Assembly: GCA_015272465.1 (NCBI GenBank)
Contig: JACYLR010000078.1
Coordinates: 1 to 34,241 of the forward strand
Source: Gloeomargaritaceae cyanobacterium C42_A2020_066
GTDB taxonomy: Bacteria; Cyanobacteriota; Cyanobacteriia; Gloeomargaritales; Gloeomargaritaceae
DNA: 34,241 bases
Direction: 5' to 3'
Of the stretch, positions 1,344 through 32,449 are shown in pieces (within the stretch, counting starts at the first letter, position 1; every line of letters begins with the position of its first letter). The notes under the pieces were generated by a model. That model worked only from the letters and a program-made list of their open reading frames with translations. It did no database searches and was not told the DNA's origin. The translations under genes were made by a program, and so were the position numbers.

Positions 1344-1423
1344 TAGCTGGGCTGTTTTGGAGTACGGGCGAGCGGTGCGATGCCGATGAAGGCCGGCCGT
1401 TACGGAGTTTTCGGGTTTAAGAC

Positions 1424-2524
1424 TCAACGACGTGGCTTAGCACGTTTAGGGGCGAGGGGCTTCAGTTGCTGCAAAAGGGCGTCGGCACGAGCCATGCCAG
1501 CAGTATCCCCCTGCTGCGCATACAACTGGCGAGCGGCTTCCAGTTCAGGCAGGGCCTCGGGCACACGGTTGACTTTTCCCAGGGCCTCTCCCAGGAAGAA
1601 TCGCGCGTCCGGGCCGTTGGGTTCTGCTTGTACCACCTCCTGATAGGCCGTGATGGCTGCTGGCCAATCCCCCCGCGCCCGTGCCAAGCGGCCGATGGCA
1701 CTGTAGGCCCGCACCGTCTGCTCCGGGGACAGGCGGGCGGTACTACCGTAGGCGTTGATCGCGCCCTCTAGGTCGCCACTGGCTTCTAAGATTTGCCCCA
1801 ACTGCATCCAGGCTTCCCCGTCCTGGGGAGCGAGGCGAATCGCCTCATTGAGGGCGGCTTGGGCTTGAGGTAAGTTGCCCTGGGCAGCCCAAGCTATCCC
1901 TATCAAGCGGCGCAGGGTGGCGTTGGTGGGGGTCTCCCGCGTCAGTTGCGTGAGTAGGGTCAGGGCTTCCCCCGGCCGGCCGGCCTGAATCCACAAGCGG
2001 GCCAGGGCTTCCTGAAGTTCCCGGTTACGGGGTTGGCTGCGGAGGGCCTGTTGCAGGGTGGTGGTGGCAGGGGTGAACAACCCTTGGCGAGCTTGGACGG
2101 TGGCTAGGCCCAGCACCGCCGTTGTCTGGCGGGGTTGCAGCCGCAGGCTCTGGCGATAGGCGGCGGCCGCATCGGCGTAGCGGCCCTCACTGCCCAGAAG
2201 CGATCCCAGGGCATTGTGGAAGTCGGGATTGCGGGGATTGAGTTGAATGGCACGGCGGTAGGCCTCCAGGGCGGCCGGCCGGTTGTTCAGTTGGGCCTGG
2301 AGATAGCCAATCGCAGAGAAGATGCTACTGTCCTGGGGCTGGAGGCGGGCGGCTTCTTGATACACCTCTAGGGCCGCGGCAAACTGCTGCTGAGCCACCA
2401 ACTGCCGGCCCTGGCGCAGGAGTTCCGACAGAGTCAGGGGCGCGGTAGGGAGTACCTGAACACTCAGGATGGGAAGCCCCGGCCCCACTATCAGTAGACT
2501 GGCTAGCAGGAGTCCGGGAAGCAT
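1424..2524 (-). CDS. Secreted tetratricopeptide-repeat (TPR) protein
   Basis: The protein has 366 residues with an N-terminal hydrophobic signal or anchor segment (MLPGLLLASLLIVGPGLP) followed by roughly nine consecutive 34-residue TPR units. Typical pieces are AALEVYQEAARLQPQD, AALEAYRRAIQLNPRN and QAALNEAIRLAPQDGEAW. TPR arrays form a superhelical scaffold for protein-protein contacts, here most likely in the periplasm or at the cytoplasmic membrane. The start chosen is the ATG at 2524. An upstream in-frame start at 2578 would run through the tRNA-Arg gene and produce the spurious leader SGVRIPPSPSA, which is antisense-of-tRNA sequence rather than protein. The C-terminus is basic (PLAPKRAKPRR). 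The partner is unknown and no neighbouring gene suggests a function. Confidence 0.85.
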   Translation of the reverse strand: MLPGLLLASLLIVGPGLPILSVQVLPTAPLTLSELLRQGRQLVAQQQFAAALEVYQEAARLQPQDSSIFSAIGYLQAQLNNRPAALEAYRRAIQLNPRNPDFHNALGSLLGSEGRYADAAAAYRQSLRLQPRQTTAVLGLATVQARQGLFTPATTTLQQALRSQPRNRELQEALARLWIQAGRPGEALTLLTQLTRETPTNATLRRLIGIAWAAQGNLPQAQAALNEAIRLAPQDGEAWMQLGQILEASGDLEGAINAYGSTARLSPEQTVRAYSAIGRLARARGDWPAAITAYQEVVQAEPNGPDARFFLGEALGKVNRVPEALPELEAARQLYAQQGDTAGMARADALLQQLKPLAPKRAKPRR

Positions 2525-2548
2525 AGGATTTAACTGTCGTAACGCCGA

Positions 2549-2622
2549 CGGGCTAGGAGGGATTCGAACCCCCGACACCGTGGTCCGTAGCCACGTGCTC
2601 TAGTCCACTGAGCTACAAGCCC
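2549..2622 (-). tRNA. trnR-ACG: tRNA-Arg (anticodon ACG)
   Basis: The minus strand folds as a standard 74-base tRNA. It has a 7-bp acceptor (one T:T mismatch at the sixth pair), a GCTC/GAGC D arm, a CGTGG/CCACG anticodon stem around loop CTACGGA (anticodon ACG, wobble A expected to become inosine), and a T arm with loop TTCGAAT. CCA is not encoded. It sits between the TPR gene and the divergent moaC. Confidence 0.95.
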
Positions 2623-2665
2623 CTGTCCGAAAATTTATGCTAGCAGGTAGCGCCGAAGTGCCGCA

Positions 2666-30177: not shown

Positions 30178-30252
30178 GGCCGTGGGGTTCGCGCAGAAAA
30201 CTCTCTCTCACGGTAGCGCACCCCGCCCGGCCGGCCGGGCTAGACTGGGGGC

Positions 30253-30629
30253 GGTAGTGTCGGAGTTGGTGAGGTGGTTGCGGGTTTGGGTGGCGCAAGC
30301 TGCCGCAGACCTGAGGAAAGTCCGGGCTTCCAAGGATCAGGCCGCTGGGTAACGCCCAGTACGGGTGACCGTGAGGAAAGTGCCACAGAAACATACCGCC
30401 AAGGCGCGAGGATCAGGCAAGGGTGAAACGGTGCGGTAAGAGCGCACCAGCAACATCGAGAGGTGTTGGCTCGGTAAACCCCGGTTGGAAGCAAGGTGGA
30501 GGGGCCAGGTTGATCCTTTTCCAGCCTCGACTAAGAGCCGCTTGAGGCATTCGGTAACGGATGTCCCAGATAGATAACCGCCCCCCGCAAGGGGAACAGA
30601 ACCCGGCTTACGTCCAACTCCGTCCTACC
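30253..30629 (+). ncRNA. rnpB: RNase P RNA (class A)
   Basis: About 377 bases with the universally conserved core: GAGGAAAGTCCGGGC (around 30312-30326), ACAGAAA, GGTAAACCCCGG region, AGATAACCGCC and the 3' GAACAGAACCCGGCTTA. Helix P1 is long: bases from about 30254 pair with those to 30629 (CGGAGTTGG with CCAACTCCG, extended by GGTAG/TACC around a three-base mismatch). It processes tRNA 5' ends with the RnpA protein. The ends are set by P1 pairing and may be off by a few bases. Confidence 0.95.
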
Positions 30630-31143
30630 GTTTGGCTGAACAGGTTGGGTCACCCCAGGTCAACTGCTTGTCCATCGCATAGCGCTGGAAGGCTTGGCCG
30701 CGACGGTTGACCATCTCGATGGCCTGGGTGGTGAAGCCTAGGCGTTCAAAGAAGGGTTGGGCGGGGCGACTGGCTTCGACCCAAAGCCGCGATAGGTACA
30801 GTCCGTGGGCTTCCTGCTCCAGTGCCCTATAAATTGCGCGACCCAGTCCGCAGCCCTGGTGCTCTGGGTGGACGTAGAAGCAATCAATGTGACCCTGGGG
30901 TTCCAGTTCCCCAAAACCTAGAATCCGGCCGGCCGAGTCGGCTACATAGGTCAGGCGAGTGCTACAAACTGCGGCCCAATCCCGGAAGTTGAGGTCAGCG
31001 GGTGCCCAGGCAGCCACTTGGGCGTGGGTGTAGTACTGGGGAGCTAGGTTGCGCACGGTAGCGTGGAATAGGGCTGCTACTTGAGCACTATCGGTAGGGG
31101 TAAATCGGCGTACCTCAATCGATTGCCGCTGGCGGCCGTACAT
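30625..31143 (-). CDS. GNAT family N-acetyltransferase
   Basis: The protein has 172 residues. The GNAT fold is clear: VRRFTPTDSAQVAALFHATVR (beta1/alpha1), YVADSAGRILGFGELEPQGHIDCFYVHPEHQGCGLGRAIYRALEQEA written with the acetyl-CoA loop Q-x-x-G-x-G, then LWVEASRPAQPFFERLGF near the end. It resembles E. coli YafP-type acetyltransferases. The substrate is unknown. The start is ATG 31143, which has GGAGG nine bases upstream. A TTG nine codons earlier lacks such support. The stop codon touches the 3' end of rnpB on the other strand. Confidence 0.87.
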   Translation of the reverse strand: MYGRQRQSIEVRRFTPTDSAQVAALFHATVRNLAPQYYTHAQVAAWAPADLNFRDWAAVCSTRLTYVADSAGRILGFGELEPQGHIDCFYVHPEHQGCGLGRAIYRALEQEAHGLYLSRLWVEASRPAQPFFERLGFTTQAIEMVNRRGQAFQRYAMDKQLTWGDPTCSAKR

Positions 31144-31252
31144 GGCTGTTGACCTCCGCCCGTACCTCAATGAGCGAAATTACTGCGCTGCCCTTGGCCC
31201 CCCGGCCGGCCGCAGATTACCCTGAAAGACGCTCCCCTTCTCCACTGGCCCC

Positions 31253-32449
31253 ATGCTCCCGACCCGACCCCACCACAAGGCCAAACCCCTGAAGGCCACC
31301 AGTCCCCGGCCGGCCAAGGCCCTGTGTAGTGAGTGTGGGCTGTGTGACACCCGCTATGTCCACTATGTTAAGGACGCCTGCGCCTTTCTCAATCAGCAGT
31401 TTGAGACTCTGGAAACCCAGGTACACGGCCGGCCGCGCCAGGTGGATCAATGGAATGACTGCTACTTCGGGGTGCATCAGCAGATGTTTACGGCCCGCAA
31501 CCGGCAGCCCATCTCCGGTGCCCAGTGGACGGGGATCGTCAGCACCCTAGGGATGGAAATGTTGCGGCGGGGTCTTGTTGAAGGCGTTGTCTGTGTACAA
31601 CAGTCCGAAACCGACCGCTTCCAACCTCAGCCGATTCTGGCGCGAACCCCGGAGGAAGTCCTAGCGGCACGGGTCAACAAGCCGACCCTATCCCCCAACC
31701 TGTCCGTGTTGGATCTTGTCGAGCAATCAGGACTGAAGCGGTTACTGGTGATTGGCGTGGGTTGCCAGATCCAGGCCTTGCGCGCCGTGGAAGCCCACTT
31801 GGGCCTAGAAAAGCTCTACGTTCTGGGCACGCCCTGTGTGGACAATGTCACGCGGGCGGGTCTGCAAAAGTTCCTGGAGACCACCAGCCGTTCCCCGCAA
31901 ACGGTGGTTCATTACGAATTCATGCAGGACTACCAGGTGCACTTCAAACACGAGGACGGCTCAGTGGAGAGGGTGCCCTTTTTTGGCCTGAACACCCAGG
32001 AACTCAAGGATGTGTTCGCCCCCTCCTGTATGACCTGTTTCGATTACGTCAATGGCCTGGCTGACTTGGTGGTGGGCTACATGGGGTCGCCCTTTGGCTG
32101 GCAGTGGTTGGTGGTGCGCAATGACCGCGGTCAGGAGATGCTCAAGCTCATCCAAGATCAATTGGAGTTCCAGCCTGTCACCAGTTCGGGCAACCGCCGG
32201 CCGGCCGTCCAGCAGAGTATCCCACTCTATGACCAGGGCCTGACATTACCTATGTGGGTCGCTAAAATCCTTGGTGCCGTCATAGGCCGCACTGGTCCCA
32301 AGGGCTTAGAGTACGCCCGGTTTTCGATCGATTCCCACTTCGCCCGCAACTATTTATACGTGTGGCGGCACTACCCCCAGAAACTGGCGGCCCATGTCCC
32401 CGCCTTCGCCCAGCGAATCGTTGGCCAGTACACACTCCCCAAAAATTAA
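31253..32449 (+). CDS. bciB: Ferredoxin-dependent 8-vinyl reductase, BciB type
   Basis: The protein has 398 residues of the FrhB (coenzyme F420 hydrogenase beta subunit) family. The N-terminus has Cys25, Cys28 and Cys31 (CSECGLCD), a middle FrhB N-domain, and a C-terminal part with APSCMTCFDYVNGLADLVVGYMG, which supplies further iron-sulfur ligands. This is the Slr1923/BciB pattern: reduction of the 8-vinyl group of divinyl chlorophyll(ide) precursors to monovinyl using reduced ferredoxin and FAD. Related 7-hydroxymethyl chlorophyll a reductases share the domain, so the activity is inferred by closest resemblance. Its stop codon lies in the U-tract side of a minus-strand terminator. The promoter must lie in the 109-bp gap to the GNAT gene. 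Confidence 0.88.
   Translation: MLPTRPHHKAKPLKATSPRPAKALCSECGLCDTRYVHYVKDACAFLNQQFETLETQVHGRPRQVDQWNDCYFGVHQQMFTARNRQPISGAQWTGIVSTLGMEMLRRGLVEGVVCVQQSETDRFQPQPILARTPEEVLAARVNKPTLSPNLSVLDLVEQSGLKRLLVIGVGCQIQALRAVEAHLGLEKLYVLGTPCVDNVTRAGLQKFLETTSRSPQTVVHYEFMQDYQVHFKHEDGSVERVPFFGLNTQELKDVFAPSCMTCFDYVNGLADLVVGYMGSPFGWQWLVVRNDRGQEMLKLIQDQLEFQPVTSSGNRRPAVQQSIPLYDQGLTLPMWVAKILGAVIGRTGPKGLEYARFSIDSHFARNYLYVWRHYPQKLAAHVPAFAQRIVGQYTLPKN

Follow-up and report, generated by a model that had tools for sequence, protein, structure and literature searches.

The genome analyzed here almost certainly carries an alternate HIP in Elhai's sense, the palindrome CGGCCGGCCG, which occupies the genome-wide place of HIP1. 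The initial annotation of a 34-kb window (the whole stretch of DNA analyzed, 34,241 nucleotides) described about 55 copies of the octamer GGCCGGCC and no HIP1 (GCGATCGC), and both observations were reproduced: the octamer is present in 55 copies spanning positions 1391 to 32206, versus a mean of 2.23 and a maximum of 7 in dinucleotide shuffles, and HIP1 in 0 copies, which alone is weak evidence because the expectation for 34 kb is merely 0.35. The 55 octamers are grouped into 50 tracts of at least 8 bp, as follows (window position, strand, tract).

1391..1399, unstranded, GGCCGGCCG
1972..1985, unstranded, CCGGCCGGCCGGCC
2272..2282, unstranded, CGGCCGGCCGG
3137..3146, unstranded, CGGCCGGCCG
3476..3488, unstranded, GGCCGGCCGGCCG
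4071..4081, unstranded, CGGCCGGCCGG
5679..5691, unstranded, CGGCCGGCCGGCC
6045..6054, unstranded, GGCCGGCCGG
6373..6382, unstranded, CGGCCGGCCG
6954..6964, unstranded, CCGGCCGGCCG
9293..9303, unstranded, CGGCCGGCCGG
9377..9387, unstranded, CGGCCGGCCGG
9455..9465, unstranded, CGGCCGGCCGG
10882..10890, unstranded, CGGCCGGCC
11435..11445, unstranded, CGGCCGGCCGG
12481..12489, unstranded, GGCCGGCCG
12770..12780, unstranded, CCGGCCGGCCG
12849..12858, unstranded, CGGCCGGCCG
13144..13152, unstranded, GGCCGGCCG
13342..13350, unstranded, GGCCGGCCG
13529..13538, unstranded, CGGCCGGCCG
14047..14057, unstranded, CGGCCGGCCGG
14601..14611, unstranded, CGGCCGGCCGG
15071..15083, unstranded, GCCGGCCGGCCGG
16010..16022, unstranded, GGCCGGCCGGCCG
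16278..16287, unstranded, CGGCCGGCCG
16710..16722, unstranded, GGCCGGCCGGCCG
16960..16969, unstranded, GGCCGGCCGG
17498..17506, unstranded, GGCCGGCCG
18497..18506, unstranded, CGGCCGGCCG
18914..18923, unstranded, CCGGCCGGCC
19054..19064, unstranded, GGCCGGCCGGC
19414..19421, unstranded, GCCGGCCG, without the GGCCGGCC octamer
19423..19433, unstranded, CGGCCGGCCGG
19759..19768, unstranded, CCGGCCGGCC
19971..19980, unstranded, CGGCCGGCCG
20164..20174, unstranded, CCGGCCGGCCG
20290..20304, unstranded, CGGCCGGCCGGCCGG, with 3 overlapping CGGCCG
21734..21744, unstranded, CGGCCGGCCGG
26190..26199, unstranded, CGGCCGGCCG
29180..29188, unstranded, CGGCCGGCC
29285..29293, unstranded, CGGCCGGCC
29949..29958, unstranded, GGCCGGCCGG
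30028..30038, unstranded, GGCCGGCCGGC
30227..30238, unstranded, CCGGCCGGCCGG
30925..30935, unstranded, CCGGCCGGCCG
31202..31212, unstranded, CCGGCCGGCCG
31306..31315, unstranded, CCGGCCGGCC
31426..31435, unstranded, CGGCCGGCCG
32196..32207, unstranded, GCCGGCCGGCCG

Altogether, GGCCGGCC occurs 5,579 times in the 2,730,382 bp of this genome (~2,040 per Mb), a 246-contig draft that was the only genome of its genus available, and HIP1 occurs 40 times. Under an order-3 Markov model computed on 1,007,330 bp of the sequence (~1.0 of 2.73 Mb), 2,076 octamers were observed versus 234.6 expected (O/E 8.85, which no other palindromic octamer present 20 or more times exceeds). The same sequence contains 15 copies of HIP1 (O/E 0.72), so that HIP1 is not abundant outside the window either. 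Neither of the two outcomes that the initial annotation named as refuting, a count within the third-order Markov expectation and plentiful HIP1 elsewhere, was thus observed. The seven sister-genus genomes compared contain 2-79 copies of GGCCGGCC; the sister-genus genome G005, with a GC content of 0.599 that is close to the 0.595 of the present genome, has 79 in 2.2 Mb and 16 in 400 kb. Among 390 genomes of the class, the present genome ranks first, followed by one with 1,025 copies. The proposal that a lineage-specific palindrome, spread over the whole genome, stands where HIP1 would is supported. The overall density is ~1.8 tracts/kb, with at least 0.8 tracts/kb in each non-N contig sampled, and closely spaced tracts are rare (32 gaps versus 158 in the 0-50 bp bin).

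The overrepresentation of the 8-mer that was originally taken as the unit stands, but the size of the unit needs correction: what is iterated is a 10-mer, CGGCCGGCCG, which comprises two overlapping CGGCCG. The edges of the 10-mer are sharp (C at position -1 in 82%, position -2 near background), the lengths of GGCC tracts are bimodal, with a trough at 7-8 and a peak at 10, and the exact 10-bp tracts include 127 CGGCCGGCCG versus 1 GCCGGCCGGC. Copies of GGCCGGCC that lack both completing flanks (C and G) number 22 versus 46.5 under flank independence (odds ratio 0.37, p 4e-6), and the elements therefore retain at least one CGGCCG. For one-off variants of the 10-mer, the ratios are 18-35 at position 1, 2-7 at position 2, 3-4 at position 3, 2-3 at position 4 and about 1 at position 5, that is, near background at the center. 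Isolated CGGCCG is not overrepresented (O/E 0.75, from totals that include ~77 kb of N, the densities being drawn from other counts), a value not expected under a simple one-site ratchet.

The genome is GC-rich and also GGCC-rich, but we give practically no credence to an excess that stems from the base composition, from codon usage or from a peptide motif that recurs: composition fails as the cause because the sister genome of equal GC has only 79 copies, the 389 other genomes reach at most 1,025 and the order-3 O/E is 8.85. The repeat is found, as originally reported, in both coding and non-coding DNA (1.84 and 1.64 tracts/kb, respectively) and in all three frames (666/467/379), which excludes an origin from a protein motif; given that amino acid identity is 50% at the tracts versus 63% overall, protein conservation yields to the repeat rather than dictating it. 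Expansion of a GGCC tetranucleotide microsatellite by replication slippage could be invoked for the tracts of 13-18 bp and for the alignment gaps, which affect 29 of the 211 tracts in aligned coding DNA versus 3.7% of random windows, but this explanation is very improbable. All other tetranucleotide runs decay monotonically with length, whereas GGCC dips and then peaks as described; the phase is fixed (127 to 1, see above); and for 86% of the tracts, the alignment with the sister genome is free of gaps, ~4-5 of 10 bases differing by substitution. The repeat arose in place, mainly through base substitution.

The concept of the alternate HIP, a palindrome that replaces HIP1, has been known since 2015, with a genome-wide frequency of ~500-2,500 per Mb as the criterion and with GGGATCCC, TCGATCGA, GGCGCC, rCCGGy (GCCGGC in part) and GCsGC as the listed cases (Elhai 2015, PMC4390886). 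The repeat described here shows the respective features, namely ~2,040 copies per Mb, depressed HIP1, counts far above those in relatives, sporadic distribution and variants biased to the outer positions, and does not qualify as HIP1 proper, which pairs GCGATCGC with a CGATCG m5C methyltransferase, given 40 copies of GCGATCGC and no PF00145 hit in the genome. The comparison with the behavior of HIP1, in which one-off variants mostly affect the first and last positions and spare the center, rests on the same study (PMC4390886). Like HIP1 (with orphan methyltransferases for CGATCG and for GATC; PMC4390886), the repeat is a GC-rich palindrome, at ~1-2 per kb genome-wide, with a palindromic extension and with deviations that are mostly outermost and fewest at the center; an orphan methyltransferase is the candidate enzyme for an internal sequence. 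Unlike HIP1, it has an unrelated sequence, resides in a genome that lacks both HIP1 and the PF00145 enzymes and encompasses two overlapping presumed enzyme sites rather than one central site. It shares with Elhai's alternate HIPs the low-HIP1 genome and the sporadic distribution, and an enzyme with a predicted target, M4, would be the matching methyltransferase; the nearest of these HIPs, rCCGGy in Oscillatoria PCC 10802, goes with a type of m5C enzyme that this genome lacks. GGGATCCC was considered as the HIP of the family but is absent, and the relatives are therefore not the thermophilic Synechococcus that bear it. Neither GGCCGGCC nor CGGCCGGCCG occurs in Elhai 2015 (0 occurrences; PMC4390886), and our literature search found no earlier description of the CGGCCGGCCG palindrome or of an M4-type enzyme with it.

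No match to the PF00145 m5C methyltransferases was detected in the genome (G000), which therefore has no HIP1 enzyme; for the same reason, the initial suggestion of an enzyme for GGCC or GCCGGC is unsupported, and methylation of GCCGGC or rCCGGy was dropped as the driver. The more general expectation of a link to a DNA methyltransferase is supported by M4, a single orphan D12-class methyltransferase on contig C19 of this genome (L019:1984-2958, + strand), flanked by a DUF2358/SnoaL protein and an epimerase-like ORF. M4 is the sole methyltransferase found with a predicted target, CGGCCG by family, that overlaps the repeat. Its motifs are intact, with departures from the family at only 2 near-invariant positions (alignment A2, 31 sequences), its predicted structure is a Dam-like fold, and it is 48-63% identical to the methyltransferase partners of PF12183 (NotI-family) nucleases. 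Such a nuclease adjoins the M4 relatives at all 5 loci scanned, a NotI-like nuclease lies near them at 83 of the 93 loci surveyed (the contig scan with M4 as the query excludes the window's own genome), and PF12183 nucleases are present in 11 of 12 M4-bearing genomes, whereas the same search of 20 other genomes found none; a sequence search found no solved structure for the NotI-like nuclease. In G000, there is no PF12183 nuclease and hence none beside M4. M4 clearly belongs to the methyltransferases of the NotI/EagI-type systems (PF12183 nuclease and D12 methyltransferase), with the differences that the nuclease is absent and that CGGCCG is built into the repeat rather than avoided. The recognition site of FseI is GGCCGGCC, but an FseI-like system is not in evidence, and the 10-bp unit needs at least one CGGCCG, which is absent from the bare GGCCGGCC.

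The avoidance of CGGCCG was assessed with the reversed sequence, GCCGGC, as the control. Some genomes with the nuclease-methyltransferase pair avoid CGGCCG extremely: the CGGCCG/GCCGGC counts are 39/1664 in G052, which has an M4-type pair, versus 5709/3369, 5812/3499 and 5216/3033 in its congeners, and 17/741 in G012. Avoidance is uneven, with clear depletion at 11 of the 38 M4-relative loci that have enough expected sites, and a low ratio is also seen in three sister genomes without M4. Judging from the nuclease family of the relatives and from site avoidance, CGGCCG is the probable target of M4, and M4 is likely the cognate enzyme of the repeat. Given that the genomes of M4 relatives lack the repeat, the enzyme alone is insufficient. 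Under the scenario that we propose, M4 would descend from NotI/EagI-type restriction-modification systems recognizing CGGCCG, its nuclease partner having been lost in this lineage, and would methylate a cytosine (N4, by class) in CGGCCG. Coupling of methylation to mismatch repair or mutation fixation could then cause sites to accumulate, if mutations completing or preserving sites that can be methylated on both strands had a better chance of being retained, until the local density reaches saturation. Such a repair-coupled ratchet is a tentative mechanism, whereas the scenario taken whole, an alternate HIP caused by the orphan CGGCCG methyltransferase with repair-coupled accumulation, is the one toward which we lean on balance. 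The G-methyl-C form of Elhai's model alone leaves the double site unexplained; methylation in vivo, like the reason for the preference of two overlapping sites over one, is inferred. A rather doubtful extension is that the methyltransferase came by horizontal transfer from a restriction-modification system, outlasted its nuclease and was kept, that its target rewrote the genome with ~5,000 composite sites and that a repair or chromosome protein requires the paired marks of such a site, yielding a two-mark HIP in place of HIP1/CGATCG; in this reading, each composite site can be methylated at two overlapping positions spaced by 4 bp.

Three explanations assign the repeat to another agent. The least improbable is a site for a symmetric dimeric nucleoid or replication protein selected for chromosome organization, with the overlap with CGGCCG incidental: the tolerance graded from the center outward resembles a symmetric motif, and the short-range repulsion suggests the usefulness of one site per few hundred bp. 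Nevertheless, we regard it as unlikely because the flanks compensate each other so as to leave one CGGCCG and hence are not independent, no candidate protein has emerged, and the association of HIPs with methyltransferases is already published (PMC4390886). A DNA uptake sequence, that is, a self-recognition tag for natural transformation spread by biased uptake and recombination, with the methyltransferase coincidental, appears slightly less likely still. It is compatible with the density, which is even across contigs and similar in coding and non-coding DNA, with the short-range spacing and with a putative pilT-like ATPase gene near M4 (from ORF reading), but the retention of at least one CGGCCG fits a methyltransferase site rather than an uptake receptor. 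The known uptake signals of Neisseriaceae and Pasteurellaceae are asymmetric, whereas the 10-mer is fully palindromic, with two-fold symmetry. Finally, the cognate enzyme might be M2 (L064:1261-2187, + strand), an orphan PF01555 enzyme with a TSPPY motif that is likewise N4-cytosine-like, but this is improbable, given that its orthologs in G002 and G006 adjoin a ThaI-family nuclease (PF15514), ThaI cuts CGCG, and the genomes with M2 orthologs (65-73% identity) show no comparable excess of GGCCGGCC.

With M4 as the presumed enzyme of an alternate HIP, the lineage represents a clean natural experiment on a decades-old question, the function of HIP1 and methylation as its cause: it has lost HIP1 together with the m5C enzymes and carries a single orphan methyltransferase of identifiable restriction-system origin, the substitute palindrome is composed exactly of the presumed site of this enzyme, and sister genomes of equal GC provide the control. 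The order of events, methyltransferase first and iterated palindrome after, becomes directly testable, and the flank compensation offers a statistical handle for telling what it is in the repeat that is being preserved. A MutH/Sau3AI-family endonuclease encoded beside a CcrM-like methyltransferase (L055) was considered as a candidate MutH analog in the sense of Elhai's model and rejected; this locus has a GC content of 46% and no copy of the repeat, and therefore looks recently acquired and an unlikely builder of the sites.

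The 55 copies of GGCCGGCC and the absence of HIP1, the usual cyanobacterial iterated palindrome, reported for the window in the initial annotation were both reproduced (2.23 copies in dinucleotide shuffles and 0.35 HIP1 expected, respectively), with the copies in the coordinate range originally given. The window encodes photosystem II CP47, so the assignment to a cyanobacterium is right. Across the draft genome (2,730,382 bp in 246 contigs, 98.7% complete), GGCCGGCC occurs 5,579 times, the reversed control CCGGCCGG 3,637 times and HIP1 40 times; under an order 3 Markov model for 1,007,330 bp of this genome, the observed to expected ratios (O/E) are 8.85, 8.58 and 0.72, respectively, which bears out the claimed excess of the palindrome over HIP1. 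Runs of the GGCC-period repeat (tracts) of at least 8 bp reach 1.81 per kb, with at least 0.8 per kb in every non-N contig sampled, and 95% of the bases lie within 1 kb of a tract. As originally described, the repeat occupies both predicted coding and non-coding DNA (1.84 vs 1.64 tracts per kb) and all three frames (666, 467 and 379 tracts). Positions 21745-29179 of the window, where GC is lower, contain a single tract within 7.4 kb and encode a 1,465-aa 5'-nucleotidase/RTX-repeat protein and psbB (CP47); an adjacent pair of DUF6515 proteins, with pentapeptide-type N-G repeats in one and Ser/Gly/Pro-Arg repeats in the other, is encoded at 7692-9757.

The iterated unit is the 10-mer CGGCCGGCCG, that is, two CGGCCG sites sharing a CG overlap. 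This conclusion follows from the maximal GGCC-period runs, which show a minimum at 7-8 bp and then a peak at 10 bp, from the steady drop of run counts with length for every other tetranucleotide unit, from the contrast between exact 10-bp runs of CGGCCGGCCG and of the same-composition GCCGGCCGGC (127 vs 1 in 383 kb), and from the sharp edge of the flanks, given that isolated GGCCGGCC copies have C at -1 in 82% of cases and base frequencies close to background from -2 outward. Three CGGCCG sites are carried by 114 14-mers. Among isolated octamers, CGGCCG is completed by both flanks in 931, by one in 471 and by none in 22; the last class falls short of the 46.5 expected under independence (odds ratio 0.37, p 4e-6), so the elements retain at least one CGGCCG. 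Admixed chance octamers would shift the odds ratio in the opposite direction; at the GGCCGGCC density of G005, a genome of the sister genus, we estimate that chance would give about 20 copies per Mb with neither flank, and thus the entire flankless class may be chance. Isolated CGGCCG outside tracts is not in excess in this genome (O/E 0.75, order 1). Single-base variants of the 10-mer exceed background 18-35-fold at the outermost position, 2-7-fold at the second, 3-4-fold at the third and 2-3-fold at the fourth, and are near background (~1-fold) at the centre. Deviations from HIP1 likewise concentrate at the terminal positions and spare the centre (Elhai, PMC4390886), a pattern that the CGGCCGGCCG variants share.

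The proposal that the palindrome is lineage-specific agrees with its 2-79 copies in 7 genomes of the only other genus of the family. In a sample of 390 genomes of the class, the present one ranks first, exceeding the runner-up (1,025 copies) by a factor of five. Base composition as the cause is ruled out by the low counts in the sister genus, including G005, which has 16 copies in 400 kb at equal GC (0.599 vs 0.595).

A profile search detected no match to PF00145 (m5C methyltransferases) in the genome, which means that both the CGATCG enzyme found in HIP1 genomes and the rCCGGy enzyme are missing. Searches with PF01555 and PF02086 yielded four methyltransferases:

METHYLTRANSFERASES: DNA methyltransferases of the genome
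M1: CcrM-like, adjoining a MutH/Sau3AI-family nuclease; 46% GC, repeat-free locus
M2: orphan with a TSPPY motif
M3: Dam-family GATC enzyme
M4: L019 (contig C19), 1984-2958; short D12 enzyme; 60% GC, with a tract inside its own gene

The methyltransferase link suggested initially thus stands in part: the rCCGGy enzyme is absent with PF00145, and M4, probably specific for CGGCCG, is present. On contig C67 (L055), overlapping genes at 800-1441 and 1429-2331, both on the minus strand, encode the CcrM-like M1 and its MutH/Sau3AI-family endonuclease, probably a recently acquired restriction-modification system. The M2 orthologues (L151, L152, L153) have differing putative nuclease neighbours between genomes. 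In the sister genomes G002 and G006 the neighbour belongs to the ThaI family (called in L151); in G119 and G027 it could not be confidently assigned to any family.

Relatives of M4 at 46-54% identity are found in 12 of 389 other genomes. A NotI-family (PF12183) nuclease adjoins them in all five loci scanned and is present in 11 of the 12 genomes (fragmentary in at least three), compared with none of 20 comparison genomes lacking M4 and none in the present genome. Across phyla, a NotI-like nuclease lies near M4 relatives in 83 of 93 loci, our M4 locus being among the ten without. Among the characterised members of the family, NotI and EagI share the core CGGCCG. The CGGCCG/GCCGGC ratio is at most 0.5 in all 12 M4 genomes and 0.08-17 in 19 without (Mann-Whitney p 0.004); G012 has 17 and 741 copies, respectively. 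Avoidance is striking inside one genus, where G052, which carries the methyltransferase-nuclease pair, has 39 CGGCCG and 1,664 GCCGGC, compared with 5,200-5,800 CGGCCG in congeners without it (G020, G039 and G075; counts of 5,709/3,369, 5,812/3,499 and 5,216/3,033). This evidence is nevertheless uneven, given that sister genomes G003-G005 have low ratios despite lacking M4 and that, of 38 informative loci across phyla, no more than 11 are clearly depleted. M4 keeps the family-conserved residues save two, and its structural model (mean pLDDT 82) finds matches in the solved structures of E. coli Dam and DpnM. Together with the nuclease partner family and the site counts, these features indicate that M4, an orphan, is probably active and probably a CGGCCG N4-cytosine enzyme.

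Most tracts arose by substitution in place: of 211 tracts within aligned coding DNA of 185 reciprocal-best gene pairs with G005, 182 are gap-free, typically with 3-6 bases different. The remaining 29 (14%, vs 3.7% of random four-codon windows) are gapped, so tracts are preferentially located in variable places. At tracts, amino-acid identity to G005 is 50%, compared with 63% across all positions and 66.5% when only G, A, P and R residues are considered; the repeat-making process thus alters proteins where this is tolerated. Gaps between tracts of 0-50 bp (32 vs 158 under an exponential model) and of 50-100 bp (115 vs 144) argue against independent mutation per site, and selection or local saturation would give this spacing. 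In the model proposed by Elhai, a mutation that gives rise to a methylatable G-meC site becomes fixed when the new strand is methylated before mismatch repair acts, and such sites build up to a density of roughly one per kb (PMC4390886). The present genome fits this model in outline, given the lost HIP1 system, an orphan enzyme with a matching site, the saturating spacing and the outer-position deviations, but not in detail: under the simple model CGGCCG sites should accumulate singly, yet it is the doubles and not the singles that are in excess. The doubles might, as a guess, reflect a reader or enzyme requiring two sites side by side; selection for binding sites or for DNA uptake is also a possible cause of the repeat. 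Alternate HIPs have been known since 2015 (PMC4390886), so the concept is not new; the novelty lies in the palindrome sequence, in its composite build from two sites and in an enzyme that stems from a restriction system. GGCCGGCC is absent from the text of Elhai 2015 (PMC4390886), and a full-text search of a library of non-subscription papers for it as a cyanobacterial palindrome yielded a single, unrelated paper.

A bias opposite to CGGCCG avoidance is seen in G229 (87 CGGCCG, 5 GCCGGC), which suggests pressure against GCCGGC. In the present genome, GGCC occurs mostly in the Y-GGCC-R context, and the counts of GGGCCC, AGGCCT, CAGCTG, CTGCAG, GAGCTC and GTCGAC fall far below expectation (O/E about 0.05-0.17), suggestive of past or present restriction pressure.
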